From Oscillatoriales cyanobacterium (lineage in GTDB: Bacteria; Cyanobacteriota; Cyanobacteriia; Cyanobacteriales; Laspinemataceae), in contig JAABRM010000008.1 of the NCBI GenBank assembly GCA_011390955.1, positions 62,001-126,000 on the forward strand: a DNA stretch of 64,000 bases, written 5' to 3'. Numbering within the stretch: position 1 is the first letter of the stretch; each line of letters opens with the position of its first letter. Below the pieces are notes generated by a model. That model was given only the letters and a program-made list of their open reading frames with translations. It made no database searches and had not been told where the DNA came from. Below are positions 2,771 through 63,385 of the stretch, piece by piece. The position numbers and the translations under genes were made by a program.

Positions 2771-5700
2771 TTAGTCATTTTTTTCCCCTGGTTTTACTCC
2801 ATCACATAAGTGCCGGTATTTTTCCTCTACTTCCGCATTTGTTCGCAGATAATCCCGCACCCAATCACAAGCATAAGCTAATTCATCAACGCGGAGAATT
2901 TTATTGATATCCCACATCATTACAGTGCGATAGTTTCCCCCAGAAATCAAGAATTTACCGTCAGCAGTAAAAGCCACACTCTTTACTGTTCCTTGATGCC
3001 CGGGTAAAGACTTGAGTAATTTTCCCTCTAAATTCCATAATTTCACCTGATTATCAATGCCGCCAGTGGCAATCATTTGACCGTTGGGACTAAAAGCAAC
3101 TCGGATTAACCCATGACTATTTGCCTTAATTATTTTGAGTAATGTTCCGTCTCTTTTCCAAAATTTAATCGTGTCATCTAAGCTAACAGAAACAATCAAA
3201 TTGCCTTGCGGACTAAAAGCAACTCCCCAAATCGATCCCTCGTGACCTGTAAGGGTTTTCACTAGCCTACCATCGGGTTGCCAAAGCTTCACTGTCCGAT
3301 CGTCGCTGGCAGAAGCTAGAAGTTGCCCGTCAGGACTAAATGCTAATTTCCAGATGATCTCTTTATGTGCATTAATACTGTGCAGTAGTTTACCCTCAAA
3401 ATTCCAGATTTTGATCGTTTTGTCATCTCCTGCCGAAGCAATAGTTTTCCCATCGGGAGAGATCGCCACAGCAAAAATAATAGCCGGATGTCCAGTAAAA
3501 GTTCTTAACAGTTCGATCGGCGATTTATGACTGTCACCCAAATCCCAAATTTGCACAATTCCAAACAGGTTTCCTGTCACCATCATCCGACTATCTGGAC
3601 TAAAGCCCACACTGAGAACACCAGATTTTGTTTCTCTGATCGTTGGCCAAAGTGTGCCATCAGAGTGCCATAATTTCATGGTATTATCCCCATTGACAGT
3701 CGCGATCGACTTCCCATCTGGGCTGGTGACAATGTCCAAAGTCGAATCATTATGACCGTAGAGTGGTTTGACAAAATCTTTATTGTGTTGCCAGAGTTTA
3801 ACAGTGCCATAATCACTGGTGGAAGCAACAATCAAACCATTAGAACTCAGTGCCACATCTTGAACAGTGGTATCATGCTGCTTTAAGTCTCTAATAAATG
3901 TGCCATCTAATGTCCAAATTTTGAGATGATTATCTTTGCCACTGGTGGCAATATATTCACCCTGACAATCAACACCTAAAATGGTATTATTGCTGGGCAG
4001 AGTTTTGACTAAAGTGCCGTCTATTTTCCAGAGTTTGATAGTGCGATCGCTACTCACGGAAACCAGTAAATTAGATTGAGAACAAAATGCTAAATCCGTG
4101 ACAGGATTCTGATGTCCTTCTAAGATTTTCAGCAACTTGCCATCAACACTCGCAAGTTTAATTATATTATCAAATCCGGCGGTAGCAACGATCTGACTGT
4201 CTGGACTAAAAGCTACCGCCATCGCTGATTTGTTATGTCCGATCGAGGTTTTCCAGAAAGTACCGTCAAGCTGCCATAATTTAACAGATCCATCGCCACT
4301 AGCAGAAGCAATCAGCTTACCATCAGGGCTGAAAGCAACTCCCCAAACAGGGTTTTTATCTACCTGAATATTTTTTACCAAAGTACCATCAACACGCCAA
4401 ATGTTCAGAGTACCATCGAAACTACCTGAGACGAGCAAGCGACTATCAGGACTGAAAGCAACGCGATATACTGTGCCGGTATGTTTTAAGGTTTTCCATA
4501 ACGTACCATCTCGTTTCCAAATTTTAACAGTTTTATCAGCACTACCAGTGGCAATTAATCGATCGTCAGGACTAATTGCCACTCCCAGCACGACACCTTT
4601 ATGACCGATTAAACGGTTAAATTCATTGTTGCTATAAGCCGATTGTCTCAAGGCAATTTCTACATCTTCAGTTATTTTACTATCTACACCCCCCAAACTT
4701 TCTAATCTTTGTTTGGCTTTAATGGCATCAATCATCGCATCTAACTGATTATTGGAAGAAAACAAGCCTTTAGAAGAAGACGCTAGGGCTTTAATTTCAC
4801 TAATTCTTGCTTCTCGATATTGCCAAAAAGCAAATATACCAATTCCTGAAGCAATGGCGAAAGCCACGCTGACAACTCCTAACATTAACCGTTGTAATTT
4901 CGCGGCTTTTTGTTCTTGTTTGAGTCGGGCTTCTACTTCTTTCGTTCTAGCCGCTTCTAATGCTATTTGTGTTTCTTTTCTATCCAGTTCGGCACTTTGG
5001 CTTAAAAACTGATAATCTAAATCGCTTAAACTTTTGCCCTGAGCCCAAAGTTGAGCATCTTTTAAGGCTTCACCTCGCAAGAGTCGCGATGTATCCGTTT
5101 GCCCCGAAGCTACCCAAGCATCAAAAGTTTGAGAATAAGGTCGCAGGTTAGAGAGTTGTTCCGCCACCCATTCTGGATTAAAAACTTCCTGATAAAGCCA
5201 GTTTTTAACTTTTAAATATCCTTGATTTTTTACCAGTAATCCCGATAAAATTAGTTCCACTTGTTCCCGACTATTATCACTTTTGATCCTCCGATCGCCA
5301 CCCATTAAAACGGGAAGTGAATTAGATTCTAATCTATCTATTTTATCCCCCATTCTTAAGGGGTATTTGGGGTTATTTGCCTCTAATATATGCTGATAAA
5401 TTACCAATAATCTACCGGCTTTTTTTGGGTTGCGTAAAAGGCGATCGCGTATCGTCCTAAAATGTTCTGGTTCATCCTGGGATTCCCAATGGTGAATAAT
5501 GTACTTTTTCACTAAATTTTGCACCCAAATTGGCTCACTCCCAGGATCGATAGTTAAACCTTCTGTCATTTCTGAGGCAGCGATCGCCACTAACTTACAG
5601 AGTTTTTGGGTCAAAAAAGGTTGGCCATTTGTCCAAGCTAAGATTTCTTTTAATACGGTTTCTGGATCGTTCACATACTCTGATAATCCTGGTAAAAGAG

Positions 5701-9657: not shown

Positions 9658-9885
9658 CTGTGGTGCGTTACGGCTGGAATCAGGGTTAATTGTTTATTGC
9701 TTAAATCAATTGCCAGCCTAACACACCCTACATTTTGCTATATATGATGGTGGGCAATGCCCACCCTACTTACCTGTGGTGCGTTACGGCTGGAATCAGG
9801 GTTAATTGTTTATTGCTTAAATCAATTGCCAGCCTAACACACCCTACATTTTGCTATATATGATGGTGGGCAATGCCCACCCTAC
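9658..9885. repeat. 112-bp direct repeat, two copies with 116-bp period
   Basis: Two essentially identical copies (9658-9769 and 9774-9885) start CTGTGGTGCGTTACGGCTGG and end with the palindrome GGTGGGCAATGCCCACC plus CTAC. Each carries both a GTGCGTTACGG and an ACACACCCTAC motif, which are frequent in cyanobacterial intergenic repeats. They fill the space between the convergent trmFO and truB stop codons and could act as bidirectional terminators. Confidence 0.97.
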
Positions 9886-16123: not shown

Positions 16124-16258
16124 TGATAAATTAGGGGAACATTGCTCCCAAAACGTCAGAAAAATTTAAGGGTTTGGCGATCGCGCATCACATAAATGCT
16201 GTTCACCCTTGACCAGGCTACTCGCGAAATTGCCAGTCCACCTCATCAGGTTATACTA

Positions 16259-18400: not shown

Positions 18401-18606
18401 TAGTTGTTGGTTGTTTGTTGTTTGTTGTTTGTTGTTTGTTGTTTGTTGTTTGTTGTTTGTTGTTGGTTGTTTGTTGTTTGTTGTTGGTTGTTTGTTGTTT
18501 GTTGTTGGTTGTTTGTTGTTAGTTGTTTGTTGTTGGTTGTTGGGTAGGGATTCTTTGGTTGTTAGTTGTTGGTTGTTGGGTAGGGATTCTTTGGTTGTTA
18601 GTTATT
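18401..18606. repeat. Heptamer (STRR) array, GTTGTTT/GTTGGTT type
   Basis: About 200 bp of seven-base units (GTTGTTT with GTTGGTT and GTTAGTT variants), interrupted twice by GGGTAGGGATTCTTTGG. It abuts the ribosome-binding site of the leftward pentapeptide gene, so the mRNA-sense form is C/A-rich (AAACAAC). Tandem heptanucleotides of this kind are known in filamentous cyanobacteria as STRR sequences. Confidence 0.97.
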
Positions 18607-18610
18607 AGTT

Positions 18611-23847: not shown

Positions 23848-26646
23848 TCAAGAAACATGAAATTGACCGGGCAAGGTGAACAACCGAGTAGCATCAGAAG
23901 CAAACAGGGGTGGACTCAAAAATTCTCCTTGAATTTCCTGACAATCAAGGGTAGCTAAAACTGCTTGTTGGGCTGAAGTTTCGATGCCTTGAACCACCAC
24001 ATGAAAACCGAATTGACGACCCAAATCAATCATCGAGCGAAGGGTCGCCACATCTTGAGGATTTTCCCCTAAGTTCTGGACAAAGGAACGGGCTATTTTG
24101 ACTCGATCGAAAGGCAAACTTTTGAGGGCAGTTAAAGAGACAAACCCGCTGCCAAAATTATCCAAAGCCAAAGAAATGCCCATAAAATGTAACTGATGTA
24201 ATCGATGGCGAGTAAACTCTAAATCTTTCATCGCGGTACTTTCGTTAATTTCCAAGCCCAAACAGTCGGGAGTGATGCCAGTGCTGTGGCACACCTCAGC
24301 GAGGATTTCTAATAAATTATGTTGCTGGAATTCTGCCCGGGACAAATTGACCCAAATCTTAAGTTTCGGCCAGCCAAGATTTTGCCAAATACGCATCTGG
24401 GTGCAAGCCATTTCTAGCACCCATTCTCCTAGCTTTAAAATCACGCTATCTTGTTCTAATAACCCAATAAATTTCTCTGCCGGAAGTAAGCCTAATTCCG
24501 GGTGATCCCAGCGAATGAGAGCTTCTATACCGCTAATTATCCGGGTTTTTGCGTGGATTAATGGTTGGTAAACCAGTAAAAATTCTTGTTGCTTCAGAGC
24601 AGCTTCGGCGTTATTTGCTAATAACAGTGACTCCGGAATTTCCGAGTTCATATAGGGGGTGTAAAATTCATAGCTATTGCGTCCAGTTTCTTTCACCCGA
24701 TATAAGGCGAGATCGGCATTTTGCATCAAAGTGGGGGAATCGATGCCATCCTTTGGGTACATGGCAATGCCAATGCTACAACTCACATAAAGCTGATGCT
24801 CTTCGATGAAAAAAGATTGCTGGATAGAATTGATAATCCTTTGGGCAATATGTCTGGCATCTTCTGGATTGTGGATATGATTCAGGATGACGATAAATTC
24901 GTCACCGCCCCAGCGAATAATCATGTCCTGTTCTCGCAGAGAACGTTTTAATCTTTCGGCAGCCTGTTGCAAGAGTTGATCCCCAACCCCATGACCTAAA
25001 GTATCGTTGATGATTTTAAATCGATCTAAGTCGATAAACATGAAAGCGACTTTTTCTTCTTCTTGTTGCGCTTTGACCAACATCTTGGGGAGAAATTTTT
25101 CCAAGTGCTGTCGGTTGGGTAAACCTGTTAATAGATCGTGAAAGGCTTGATGGTGAATCACTACTTCTTGTTGATGCCGTTGGATTGCCCCACCAATACT
25201 GCCCGCGATCGCCACTAAAATTGATGCTTCACTTTTTGACCAATCTCGTGCAGTTTGGCAATCATCAAATCCGACATAGCCGAAAAATTCTTCTTGGACA
25301 ATAATGGGGACTAACAAACTGGAAACCACGTCGGCATAACCAAATACGGCGCGATCGCCTGGACTCATTCGATCGGTCAATGCGGTGACAACTTCACCGG
25401 CTAACAAACATGGAAAAATATCAGAATCGACGGGAATGCTCACTCGATCCGCTGTTTTGGCACTGGAAATTCTCGCCGATGTCCATTCATATTCCATAAT
25501 TAAGGTGGGGCGATCGGCTGTGACTGGGGCATGGCGATCGCTATTTTTTCCTTCTATACAGACATATACCCGATGGACTTCTACGGCTTCCCCCAACTTT
25601 CCTAACCCTCGACGCACCGCTTCTCGGTGGTCAGGATTCAACAATAATTCATTCATCGCAGCGGCCACCGCTTCCAGCAAACAATCCCGTTTAATCAATT
25701 CGATTTCTGCTTGCTTCCGCTGAGTAATATCGACCACCGTCCCCTCATAGCCAATCACTTCTCCAGAAGCATTGCGAATTTTTCGCGCACATTCTGAAAT
25801 CCAAATAGTTTGGCCATCTTTACGGTAAATTTCTGACTCAAACCCCCAGACCGCATTTTGTGTTTCCAGTAAGCGGCTAAACTCCTTTCGCCGTTGGGGA
25901 TTAACATAAAGTTGCCGCTCAATATCCGTCAGACTGGCCATCATCTCTGCGGGGGAATCATAACCGTAGATAGTGGCTAACATCGGGTTAACCGTGAGAT
26001 AACGACCATCGGCGGTGGTTTGAAAGATGCCCTCAACTGCATTTTCAAAAATACTCCGATATTTTTCCGTGGTATCTTTTAATCGCTTTTCGGTTTGTTT
26101 TTGGTGAAGCAACACGGTCAATTGAGGCATCAAATGATGAATCACACCGAGTTGGCTCGGATTTTCTGATTTAGATTTAAGCATAAAAAATAAAATGACT
26201 GCGACGACTTGATTCTCAATCAAAATGGGCAAACCCAAGCCGGTTTTAATCCCCAGCTTTTTTGCTATTTCAACTCTAGGAAAAACTTTTTTTGACAGCT
26301 TAGATACATCAGGATACCACTCAGGTTGTTGGGAAACCCACAGTCGTCCGGGCAAGCCGATATTCGGTGGAAAAATAAATTCTAAACTATGAGTTTTGAG
26401 TTGCTCGATCGCCAAAGAATGTCGTTTAAATCCAGCTTGACTGCATTGCAAATAGGCACCACTGGCACTGGGAATCCATACTTCTCCATAATCCCAGTCC
26501 GTGACTTCACAGATTCTCTCTACTACGATACTTAAAGCGGTTTCCAGATTCTCAGCAGCCGCGATTTCTAAAATTAGCCTTGGCAATAAAGACTGATCCA
26601 TTTTTATTAGCTTATTGGCTCGGTTTTCTTGAAAAATTGCCGTCAT
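23848..26646 (-). CDS. GAF-PAS-GAF-GGDEF-EAL protein with degenerate EAL
   Basis: 932 residues from ATG 26646; a TTG at 26697 would add 17. Order: GAF (~30-180), PAS/PAC (~190-315), GAF (~320-480), GGDEF and EAL. The cyclase site RWGGDEFIVIL is intact. In EAL, EALIRW and INESTAM are kept, but DDFGTG is DNFGSG, the KID motif is KIA (VKIARSFV) and AEGVE is VQGIE. Three metal or catalytic positions are therefore changed. The protein is most likely a diguanylate cyclase with a non-hydrolytic EAL domain that may bind c-di-GMP. It has no membrane helix and is probably cytoplasmic. Confidence 0.92.
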   Translation of the reverse strand: MTAIFQENRANKLIKMDQSLLPRLILEIAAAENLETALSIVVERICEVTDWDYGEVWIPSASGAYLQCSQAGFKRHSLAIEQLKTHSLEFIFPPNIGLPGRLWVSQQPEWYPDVSKLSKKVFPRVEIAKKLGIKTGLGLPILIENQVVAVILFFMLKSKSENPSQLGVIHHLMPQLTVLLHQKQTEKRLKDTTEKYRSIFENAVEGIFQTTADGRYLTVNPMLATIYGYDSPAEMMASLTDIERQLYVNPQRRKEFSRLLETQNAVWGFESEIYRKDGQTIWISECARKIRNASGEVIGYEGTVVDITQRKQAEIELIKRDCLLEAVAAAMNELLLNPDHREAVRRGLGKLGEAVEVHRVYVCIEGKNSDRHAPVTADRPTLIMEYEWTSARISSAKTADRVSIPVDSDIFPCLLAGEVVTALTDRMSPGDRAVFGYADVVSSLLVPIIVQEEFFGYVGFDDCQTARDWSKSEASILVAIAGSIGGAIQRHQQEVVIHHQAFHDLLTGLPNRQHLEKFLPKMLVKAQQEEEKVAFMFIDLDRFKIINDTLGHGVGDQLLQQAAERLKRSLREQDMIIRWGGDEFIVILNHIHNPEDARHIAQRIINSIQQSFFIEEHQLYVSCSIGIAMYPKDGIDSPTLMQNADLALYRVKETGRNSYEFYTPYMNSEIPESLLLANNAEAALKQQEFLLVYQPLIHAKTRIISGIEALIRWDHPELGLLPAEKFIGLLEQDSVILKLGEWVLEMACTQMRIWQNLGWPKLKIWVNLSRAEFQQHNLLEILAEVCHSTGITPDCLGLEINESTAMKDLEFTRHRLHQLHFMGISLALDNFGSGFVSLTALKSLPFDRVKIARSFVQNLGENPQDVATLRSMIDLGRQFGFHVVVQGIETSAQQAVLATLDCQEIQGEFLSPPLFASDATRLFTLPGQFHVS

Positions 26647-26939
26647 ATTCTTGGTATCCAGATTAGAGGTCAAAATTAGAATTGCCGCGAACAGCAATTT
26701 TTAGTGCGAACATCTAGGTAAATTAGATCGTTGCTGTTGGGCGATCGCCTTGTGCAACAGCTATTCATTGGCGTTCGGTGTTAATTGCGTAATTATAGAT
26801 TTGCACCGCTGAAGAAAGCTAGTCAAATAAAATAACTTAGGATTTGTGAGATTTGTTTTGGTGTCCAGTCATTCACTTCTCGTCAAACCTGTAATCTTAT
26901 CCCCAGTGAAGCGGTTCAGATATTGCTCTAGATGCAGAT

Positions 26940-27098
26940 ATGGATTGTTTTAACCTTGACTCATTAGCCATCAAATTAGCTATCAAATTGGCCATCAAAT
27001 TTGCTAGAGAATTAGCCATGAAATTAGCCCTGAAATTTGCCATCAAATCAGCTATGATTTTGGCTATAAAGTTAGCCATAAATTGGCCATTAAATTAG
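26940..27098 (+). CDS. Possible 52-aa cationic amphipathic peptide, (LAIK)n
   Basis: A short frame opens at ATG 26940 (MDCFNLDS) and stops with TAG at 27096. Ten tetrads follow: LAIK three times, then FARE, LAMK, LALK, FAIK, SAMI, LAIK, LAIN. The pattern would give a Lys-rich amphipathic helix. No clear ribosome-binding site precedes it. The DNA is a 12-bp tandem repeat, so the frame may be a by-product. A minus-strand frame over the same DNA would read LMANLIAN-type repeats. Confidence 0.25.
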   Translation: MDCFNLDSLAIKLAIKLAIKFARELAMKLALKFAIKSAMILAIKLAINWPLN

Positions 27099-27118
27099 TC
27101 ATAAAATTGGCCATTAAA
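26964..27118. repeat. Tandem 12-bp repeat, consensus TTAGCCATCAAA
   Basis: About thirteen units of 12 bases (TTAGCCATCAAA, TTAGCTATCAAA, TTGGCCATCAAA, TTAGCCATGAAA and so on) lie in a 1.1-kb region without a recognised gene. Substitutions mostly keep a Leu/Phe-Ala-Ile/Met-Lys reading on the plus strand. Confidence 0.9.
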
Positions 27119-27776
27119 TCGATCTAGAGAAGGTTTTCGCCCCGGAAATTGACTGATTGAAAACCCTTTTCTTTTCGTTGCTTGGCTAAAGTCTGATTTC
27201 CCGACTAAGGCGATCGACAAGCAAGCACCTGAATACTCGGTTGACTTACGGGCATCACGCAAAAGTTATGCTTTGGTGACAAGGGGGTCAATTCGGTTTT
27301 GTCACCATGATATCCGTTACCGCTAATTCCGGGGCGAAAACTGAAGGCAATGGCCTTCCTAGTAAGTTTCCCAGAGAATCTTAACGAGGGCGGTAAATTT
27401 AGATTCAGTATGAGTAAGACCATCAAGGGGATGGTTCCCACCCATTATATATTTAATCTCTTCTTAACTTGAGTAAAAATAGGCAAAATTTCCGCATCAA
27501 ATTACACAAATTTGAGCAAAAATTGAAAAGAAATATCAAGACGGATCGCTGAAATTAGAGTTTCGGCTTCAGCCGATCCCGTTTTGACCGATCGCCGTTG
27601 GGGGAGTTGCTTCCCGCTTTCCTGGAGATTAAATCACCCAATTAAATTGACCGGGACTGACCCATGACTTTTATCTTTCGTCAGGGCAATAATCTTGCCC
27701 CTACATGGATCTGGCGATCGCATCCATTCGGGGCAGTCGCGATCGACATGATTAAATTCCCCGACTCATCCAGCCC
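27119..27776. other. Sparse region with separated inverted repeats
   Basis: GTTTTCGCCCCGGAA (27133-27147) and its exact complement TTCCGGGGCGAAAAC (27327-27341) bracket 209 bp. Inside is a hairpin GGTGACAA ... TTGTCACC (27275-27306). No transposase or convincing ORF is present. The pair resembles terminal inverted repeats of a small non-autonomous element, but no target duplication is clear. Confidence 0.5.
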
Positions 27777-28217
27777 TCAAGTTTTATAGTTATAGTCTAA
27801 GGCATCCAGATACCAAGTTTTCTGGTCTTTAATGAAAGACATATTTAAGGGAATTTTTTGACCCGTTTTCGTAATCACTGTCACCTCTAAAGAATGACAG
27901 TTTTCTTCTACGGTGGGGATTGACATCAAAGTGCGAGTATATTGATGTAGTTTATGCTTTTTGATAAACTTAGTAAAAGCTTGTTTAGAGGTTTTGGCTT
28001 TAAAATTATCCGTCGTCCCCTGATAAGCCTCGGTGACATTGCCCTCGACAATCAAAGTCAAAAACGTGCGAATCGCCTGGGGTAATCCTTTGGTTTTTCG
28101 CAAAATACTGAGGGCAACGATGACCCATACTAATAACAACAGACCGACAATGCCAGCCAGACCAATTCCTAGATAAGATAAATAAGGGGGAAAGTTTGCC
28201 ATAAGAGTTGAAGACAT
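27777..28217 (-). CDS. Small single-pass membrane protein of unknown function
   Basis: 146 residues. A long hydrophobic helix (LGIGLAGIVGLLLLVWVIVA) at about 15-35 anchors a soluble C-terminal domain of ~105 residues. That domain (FLTLIVEGNVTEAYQGTT, NFKAKTSKQAFTKFIKKH, TWYLDALDYNY) has the look of NTF2-like/DUF4864-type small alpha+beta folds, which often end in a W-x-L-D strand; this is only a resemblance. The start ATG 28217 precedes the helix, although the Met four residues on is also possible. The gene stands alone on its strand, convergent with nothing. Confidence 0.6.
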   Translation of the reverse strand: MSSTLMANFPPYLSYLGIGLAGIVGLLLLVWVIVALSILRKTKGLPQAIRTFLTLIVEGNVTEAYQGTTDNFKAKTSKQAFTKFIKKHKLHQYTRTLMSIPTVEENCHSLEVTVITKTGQKIPLNMSFIKDQKTWYLDALDYNYKT

Positions 28218-31478: not shown

Positions 31479-31699
31479 GGCGCAATGTTTGCGCCCGCAA
31501 TGTTTGCGCCCGCAATGTTTGCGCCCGCAATGTTTGCGCCCGCAATGCCCATCCTACGCAGCTTAATTCCTCAGCTTTTTTGGTGGGCATTGCCCACCCT
31601 ACTTTTCCGGTGGGCAATGCCCACCCTACGCAGCTTTTCTCAGCTTTTTTGGTGGGCATTGCCCACCCTACGCAGCTTTTTTGGTGGGCATTGCCCACC
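31479..31699. repeat. 15-bp GCGCCCGCAATGTTT tandem repeat plus four palindromes
   Basis: GCGCCCGCAATGTTT is repeated at a 15-base period from 31491 to 31550 after a GTAGGGGCGCAATG opening. Four copies of the GGTGGGCA(T/A)TGCCCACC palindrome follow at about 31582, 31609, 31651 and 31683, with GCAGCTTTTTT spacers. The block separates menF from menD and may attenuate read-through into menD. Confidence 0.95.
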
Positions 31700-43600: not shown

Positions 43601-43691
43601 AGGTTATTTCTTTTCCAAACCTTTGGATAGTCAAGCGGCAACAGATTTATTAGCTAAAGCGCCAAACTGGTTAAATCACGAAGAAGAATAA
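40665..43691 (+). CDS. Multi-PAS GGDEF-EAL protein
   Basis: 1008 residues. A short coiled coil (~5-45, QLATQIEDLSKQIAELQTTL) is followed by four PAS/PAC units (~75-190, 195-315, 320-440, 445-565), then GGDEF and EAL. Both catalytic sites look intact: RLGGDEFSIL, EALVRW, ITESVLMEN, DDFGTGYSSLS, VKIDRSFV and VAEGIET. There is no membrane helix, so cytoplasmic signals or redox/light cofactors in the PAS domains are likely inputs. AGGAGG at 40648-40653 is the ribosome-binding site. It stands alone on its strand. Confidence 0.94.
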   Translation: MSERQLATQIEDLSKQIAELQTTLQAEIKAREYVESLLWKQEIAENTAKPLDPSPGNPGVEHLLNWDPQLANQIVNTIADPIFVQSEQHRYLMVNDAFCQLVGYRREQLIGQSDERIFPQVDLFRKQEKRVLAWGSPVEYEVHFTNAVGTTHILSTKLSYFEDGSGEKFWVGIGREISQQKEMELTMLECQERFLDIIDQAAVGIAQLSLDGQFLWTNSGFGKIVGYADSELLQMSFQDLTYAEDVGPSLELCQALINGLIPKFSKEKRYVHKDGSVVWGNATVSLARNSEDKPKYFVVVLTDISDRKRTEQALQDSEHRYYSLMQVSPVGIFHLDASGECVYANPHACEIAGLGLVEMLGEGWVQNIHPQDRLVVFEQLQYIHKHRTKVSCKYRFLRANNQVNWVLSEAIAQCDKEDKITGYVWTVTNISELKVTEEALRQSEEQFRHTFEYAPIGMAIQSLHGPFLRVNQGLCEPLGYTAEELLGKSFADLIHPEEVTAFLEQKQHLLAAKIASFQMENRYFAKDGHVVHALLKMVLVRDFMGDPLHLLGQFVDISDRKQVEQQLVHDAFHDALTGLPNRAMFLERVSTALKRIKRYPNQLFAVLFLDVDRFKIVNDSMGPVMGDRLLIAIADKLNQCLRSTDMVARLGGDEFSILLEDIKDIKDATKAADRILEILGSPFTLNGYEVVTTASIGIAMLSPAYEQAEQVLRDADIAMYRAKRAGKARYEIFDKVMYSYALGLLQLENDLRRAIEKREFRVHYQPITSLISATLTGFEALVRWAHPEKGMISPVEFIPIAEETGLIVPLGEWVLREACQQIKKWQDEFPWTASLKMSVNLSAKQLRERHLIQTIDDILMETNLNPNCLKLEITESVLMENTDVVAKILWQLRSRNIELSLDDFGTGYSSLSYLHSFPVNTVKIDRSFVSRMNENEENSEIVKAIVTLAHTLGMDAVAEGIETSEQLAQLKSLACEQGQGYFFSKPLDSQAATDLLAKAPNWLNHEEE

Positions 43692-43857
43692 TTGATAATT
43701 GATAATTGATAATTGATAATTGATAATTGATAATTGATAATTGATGGCTTAACATAATTATCAATTGATAATTGATAATTGTTAATTGATAATTGTTAAT
43801 TGTTAATTGATAATTGTTAATTGTTAATTGTTTCCCCTGCACCGATGGCAGCCCTAC
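43690..43857. repeat. AATTGAT heptamer array ending in GATGGCAGCCC
   Basis: It begins inside the EAL-gene stop region and runs as AATTGAT units, switches to TTAATTGT variants after 43741-43760, and ends with TTTCCCCTGCACCGATGGCA and GCCCTAC. The same tail (CCC...GATGGCGGCCC) follows heptamers near 60987 and 63213. Confidence 0.92.
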
Positions 43858-45433: not shown

Positions 45434-45712
45434 TTGTTGATTGTTGATTGTTGTTGGTTGATTGTTGTTTGTTGATTGTTGATTGTTGATTGTTGATTGT
45501 TGATTGTTGGTTGTTGTTGGTTGATAGTTGATTGTTGATTGTTGATTGTTGGTTCTGGCTAACCTATAATAACCAATAACCAATAACCAACAACTAATAG
45601 CTAATAACCAATAACCAATAACCAACAACCAATAACCAACAACAAACAACAATCAACAAACAACCAACAACCAACAACAAACAACCAACAACCAACTATC
45701 AATATAAAATCA
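45434..45712. repeat. Strand-switching heptamer array between divergent genes
   Basis: From 45434 to about 45555 the plus strand is GATTGTT/GTTGGTT; from about 45567 to 45710 it is CAATAACC/CAACAACC. The switch sits near GGCTAACCTATAATAACC (45557-45574). Each divergent gene (GntR leftward, dienelactone hydrolase rightward) therefore has a C/A-rich leader in its own sense. The two halves are complementary and can fold into a long cruciform or hairpin. Confidence 0.95.
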
Positions 45713-63060: not shown

Positions 63061-63385
63061 AGAGGGTGTAGGGTGTAGGGGTTTGAGAGGGTGTAGGGTG
63101 TAGGGTGTAGGGTGTAGGGTGTAGGGAATAATTGATAATTGATAATTGATAATTGATAATTGATAATTCTGTTTAATTGTCAATTATCAATTGTTAATTG
63201 TTAATTGTTTTCCCGATGGCGGCCCCAACCAACAACCAACAACCAACAACCAACAACCAACAATCAACAATCAACAATCAACAACCAACAACCAACAACC
63301 AACAACCAACAACCAACAACCAACAACTAACAACTAACAACTAACAACTAACAACAAATAACAAACACAAATAACAAATAATAAA
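63061..63385. repeat. Three heptamer families in one block
   Basis: GTAGGGT heptamers (63066-63126), AATTGAT heptamers (63127-63170) and TTAATTGT variants, then CCCGATGGCGGCCCC (63212-63226) and a long CCAACAA/CAACTAA array to 63385. It separates the leftward site-2 protease gene from the TonB-like gene downstream of it. Confidence 0.95.

Follow-up and report, generated by a model that had tools for sequence, protein, structure and literature searches.

The 64,000-nucleotide stretch of cyanobacterial DNA analysed here (the window; G000:C57:62001-126000 of a 7.12-Mb genome in 113 contigs) contains a run of 12-bp repeats between two genes, and the question it raises is whether this run encodes a peptide or is repeat DNA whose reading frames only look like one. 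A first-pass annotation had described about thirteen units in an intergenic gap of about 1.1 kb. Analysis of the 64-kb window with TRF returned an array of period 12 with 13.2 copies at 26963-27119, which bears out both the unit number and the location. The array scored 125 at period 12 and 146 at period 24. The best score among 60 first-order Markov sequences (64 kb each) was 60, and the 12-bp array is far above chance. The end given in the first-pass annotation, 27118, corresponds closely to the end of the array (27119) but not to that of the ORF, which is at 27098. The array and its neighbours are as follows.

26963 to 27119, no strand assigned: tandem array of 13 units of 12 bp, consensus ATTAGCCATCAA (TRF and unit alignment), partly arranged as 24-bp pairs.
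27072 to 27082, no strand assigned: unit 10, 11 bases long; a 1-nt deletion shifts the last three units from the LAIK frame.
23848 to 26697, minus strand: flanking gene with GAF, PAS, GGDEF and EAL domains (Pfam); longest ORF from TTG 26697.
27777 to 28217, minus strand: flanking gene of 146 aa with a weak DUF4864 match under the Pfam cut-off.

Both flanking genes are on the minus strand, and the array is located downstream of the stop of the 146-aa gene. Judged by eye, the GGDEF/EAL gene probably starts at ATG 26601, a codon that the relatives share, and the array lies about 0.36-0.52 kb upstream of this codon. Elsewhere in the same gap, positions 27390-27512 are 88% identical to genus relatives, compared with 81% for the adjacent GGDEF/EAL gene, and 27380-27520 folds as minus-strand RNA with a z of -1.88; the segment is possibly a small RNA or leader.

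Two ORFs cross the array.

26940 to 27098, plus strand: LAIK-type ORF of 52 codons from ATG 26940; start not conserved in relatives.
26897 to 27079, minus strand: MANL-type ORF of 60 codons, on the other strand across the same array.

The plus-strand ORF is built of the tetrads LAIK, FARE, LAMK, LALK, FAIK and SAMI. The 52-residue frame reported earlier is present as an ORF, but it does not stay intact through the whole repeat, being broken by the 1-nt deletion in unit 10. Past that unit the LAIK frame reads NWPLN and then stops, and the last three units resume LAIK in another frame. The deletion may be a recent event or an assembly error. The longest open stretch across the array is 65 codons. 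A 12-bp period preserves the reading frame, 12 being a multiple of 3, and three of six frames run without a stop through 13 pure consensus units; such an array automatically yields tetrad peptides from either strand. When 27 random substitutions were introduced into such units (5000 trials), these three frames stayed open in 26% (LAIK), 34% and 57.5% (MANL) of trials. Because the consensus frames so often survive random substitution, the openness of the LAIK and MANL frames says little.

The LAIK peptide had been put forward as an amphipathic helix. Over its full length, its helical moment was 0.164, no higher than that of shuffled versions (0.130 +/- 0.067), as would be expected from a repeat of four residues, which falls out of step with a helix turn of 3.6. 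In its best 18-residue window, the moment was 0.537; the best windows in the frames of other 12-bp arrays ranged from 0.20 to 0.71, and 4 of the 6 equalled or exceeded the LAIK peptide. A Pfam search with the LAIK and MANL translations gave no match for either. When both were searched against the proteins of 59 genomes, 7 of the 59 matched per frame (own genome included for LAIK), and no ORF counterpart was found among the matches inspected. A homologous small protein elsewhere was rejected, as the matches inspected were other 12-bp arrays, out-of-frame repeat tracts in longer ORFs and an unrelated coding gene. The LAIK peptide is most likely a by-product of repeat DNA, and we judge the MANL-type ORF to be one as well.

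The 1.3 kb around the array was then compared with 29 genomes by nucleotide search. Eight of the 29 matched, including the genome itself. The flanks were matched only in the genus members G001 and G002; five others matched via their own 12-bp arrays, and G011 matched additionally through a 31-bp piece. G001 and G002 are near-identical at the array site and were treated as one independent comparison. In both, the flanks align, and about two imperfect units (GTAAGCTAGAGA and GTAAGCTAGAAA) stand in place of the 13. The unit number at one site therefore differs between relatives (13 versus about two, with one genome per species), as is typical of minisatellites or VNTRs; so are the head-to-tail tandem units, within the range of about 10-100 bp. 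In this outgroup-free comparison, it would be simpler to suppose that units were gained in this genome than that the relatives lost them. The first-pass annotation had named frame-breaking changes in close relatives as what would speak against the peptide, and such changes were found: ATG 26940 is replaced by TTA in G001 and G002, and the alignment, read by eye, shows an in-frame TAG in the relatives' first unit. The LAIK ORF is therefore not conserved.

Further sites behave in a similar manner. A second intergenic 12-bp array (TTTGCCGTTAAG, with FAVK and LTAN frames), which came up in the protein search with the LAIK frame, is present in G001 and G002 (L161 and L162, about 1500-1655) but missing from the corresponding site of the genome under study (G000:C11, about 4745-4878), where its flanks are found. 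At a third site, four members of a related genus (G007, G009, G010 and G011) carry AAATTTCAGGGC in 4.0, 4.0, 3.0 and 5.8 copies, respectively, within flanks that by eye are common to all four genomes. Intergenic 12-bp arrays turn over in the genus.

Arrays were also surveyed in 2.2 Mb of loci from 114 sources, some of them overlapping (L016 and L030 apparently are the same contig). An array was scored as non-coding if no ORF of 120 codons covered 80% of it, an imperfect rule, as a 581-codon open stretch starts with the L156 array at 16156. This revealed 31 period-12 arrays of at least four copies; 23 of them lay within ORFs of 120 codons or more, and the other 8, the window array included, were outside. 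Arrays outside ORFs with periods of 10, 11 and 13 numbered 10, 14 and 6 in the same 2.2 Mb. The count for period 12 is like these, and thus a non-coding 12-bp array is ordinary for these genomes. Tandem repeats in the survey are dominated by period 7 (194 arrays outside ORFs and 38 inside), and the window itself holds many long heptamer arrays, e.g., at 18403-18610, 43688-43830, 45434-45696 and 63226-63367. It also holds an exact 116-bp tandem duplication (9658-9885; two copies, 100% identity) and a perfect 15-bp tandem repeat of 4.5 copies between two minus-strand genes (31481-31547).

Taken as a whole, the array is very probably a lineage-specific non-coding minisatellite. It would have started as a short 12-bp duplication at an intergenic site, still visible in the sister species as roughly two imperfect units. 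Expansion to 13 units may have come about via replication slippage or unequal crossing-over, with slippage our inferred mechanism, and point changes and the 1-nt loss would have gathered between and after rounds of copying. The array frames are probably not translated.

One property of the array counts in part against a non-coding reading and keeps a small doubt open. The first-pass annotation had proposed that substitutions between units tend to conserve the Leu-Ala-hydrophobic-Lys pattern. In an alignment of the 13 units, 21 of the 27 deviations from the consensus fall in columns 3, 6, 9 and 12 (1 of 495 four-column sets), which are third codon positions in the LAIK frame and equally in the MANL frame on the opposite strand. 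Single changes are synonymous in the LAIK frame in 15 of 27 cases, versus 27% expected, and in the MANL frame in 9 of 27, versus 21% expected. As copies share changes via duplication, changes were also counted on a minimum spanning tree, and 12 of the 18 on it were at third positions. When slippage was simulated with the same rate for all columns, 12 of 18 in any one class came up in 0.3-0.6% of runs; with unequal column rates, this rose to 2-7%. The chance that the three hottest columns fall in one class is 5.5%. When distinct variants were counted once each, 8 of 14 were at third positions (P of 0.06 for that class and 0.17 for any class). The proposed bias towards conservative changes is thus partly borne out, but its strength is model dependent (P of 0.003-0.07), and the codon-level signal, which was singled out after the fact, is suggestive.

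We also compared the share of the largest class among arrays with periods of 9, 12, 15, 18 and 24 (four copies or more, indels of 2% or less and a minimum of four variants). The sample comprised 15 coding and 9 non-coding rows, and the window array accounted for two of the latter. The share was 0.70 for the window array versus 0.36-0.62 in the 7 other non-coding arrays. Among the coding arrays, 2 of 15 had a share of 0.70 or more, and the window array lies within the coding range.

These figures are the case for a newborn or recently broken small gene, LAIK on the plus strand or MANL on the minus strand, in which purifying selection would have held the Leu-Ala-hydrophobic-Lys pattern until a recent deletion. 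We consider such a gene improbable. The third-position excess and the surplus of synonymous changes in both frames favor it, but start and frame are missing in the genus relatives, the window copy is frameshifted in unit 10, 12 of the 27 changes are non-synonymous, the signal weakens when each variant is counted once, and the best helical moments are nothing special among 12-bp arrays. A variant of the same idea is a gene in the making, with a lineage-specific start, selection for a cationic membrane-seeking LAIK peptide and a frameshift that is either recent or an assembly error; this, too, has a low probability. The earlier suggestion of a membrane-active peptide or new gene therefore keeps the suggestive codon bias in its favor but fails on conservation and frame integrity, with an amphipathicity that is not special, and a new small gene at the array is unlikely.

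The array could instead serve as a non-coding regulatory element acting as DNA or RNA, e.g., a hairpin, or a spacer dependent on copy number, in the region upstream of the GGDEF/EAL gene. Its distance from the likely ATG of that gene would suit such a role, and an effect of unit number on the gene is possible from position. The plus-strand RNA folds better than shuffled sequences (z of -2.62; 2 of 200 as good); the minus strand, which is that of the GGDEF/EAL gene, is less clear (z of -1.69; 14 of 200). However, the relatives retain the GGDEF/EAL gene with just about two units, and partly palindromic repeat units would be able to fold well without selection. Promoter- and terminator-like sites were not above shuffles (2 versus 2.8 and 1 versus 1.1, respectively), and no Rfam family was found at the cut-off. 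A known RNA was rejected, Rfam giving three sub-threshold matches only. We regard a regulatory element as a slim prospect.

Among 243 genomes of the order, 17 contained the core AAATTWGCC at 12-bp spacing; the reversed pattern occurred in 1. Several AAATTWGCC arrays (L086-L090 and L099-L101) lie inside long ORFs, where their frame reads by eye as GLIF-type tetrads, and a NACHT domain was found in all four of the GLIF-type array proteins tested. The window array has core and period in common with these NACHT-gene arrays of the same order. Unlike them, it is intergenic, and the GLI-type frame has stops here, so it is not one of the GLIF-type NACHT arrays. That it is an inserted fragment of a repeat-bearing gene (a GLIF-type NACHT gene, or a WD40 gene with similar 12-bp arrays) is hardly credible: the AAATTWGCC core does occur in arrays within such genes of other genomes, but the flanking sequence is continuous with that of the unexpanded site in the relatives, and the frame that gives GLIF in NACHT genes is the one interrupted by stops. 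A transposed fragment was rejected in a search of the genome itself, which returned the window copy and one 40-bp match at 86% only, and no donor gene with matching flanking sequence was found among the genus genomes compared.

As a lineage-specific non-coding minisatellite, the array resembles bacterial minisatellites or VNTRs in being head-to-tail, imperfect and intergenic, with a unit number that differs between related genomes; bacterial VNTRs vary within species, whereas the window array was compared across species, with one genome each. STRRs are cyanobacterial short tandem repeats with a 7-bp unit. These heptamers, abundant in the window, share with the array their tandem arrangement and intergenic position in the DNA of a filamentous cyanobacterium, but the array, with a period of 12 and another sequence, falls outside their 7-bp definition. 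The listings and abstract openings covered by a literature search contained no description of the window array.

Every stop-free 12-bp unit produces a tetrad repeat, and frequently both strands do so; a peptide that looks designed is therefore weak evidence for a gene. That non-coding short tandem duplications can become a repeat protein is described for fish antifreeze glycoproteins (PMC8622921). The antifreeze glycoprotein genes are expressed and functional (PMC8622921), whereas the frame and start of the window array are not conserved. As a minisatellite, the array matters little beyond illustrating how easily 12-bp arrays give peptide-like frames. Were the codon-level signal real, the array would represent a repeat gene of very recent origin, with its unexpanded site still visible in a sister species, and would be a useful test case for how bacterial genes begin.
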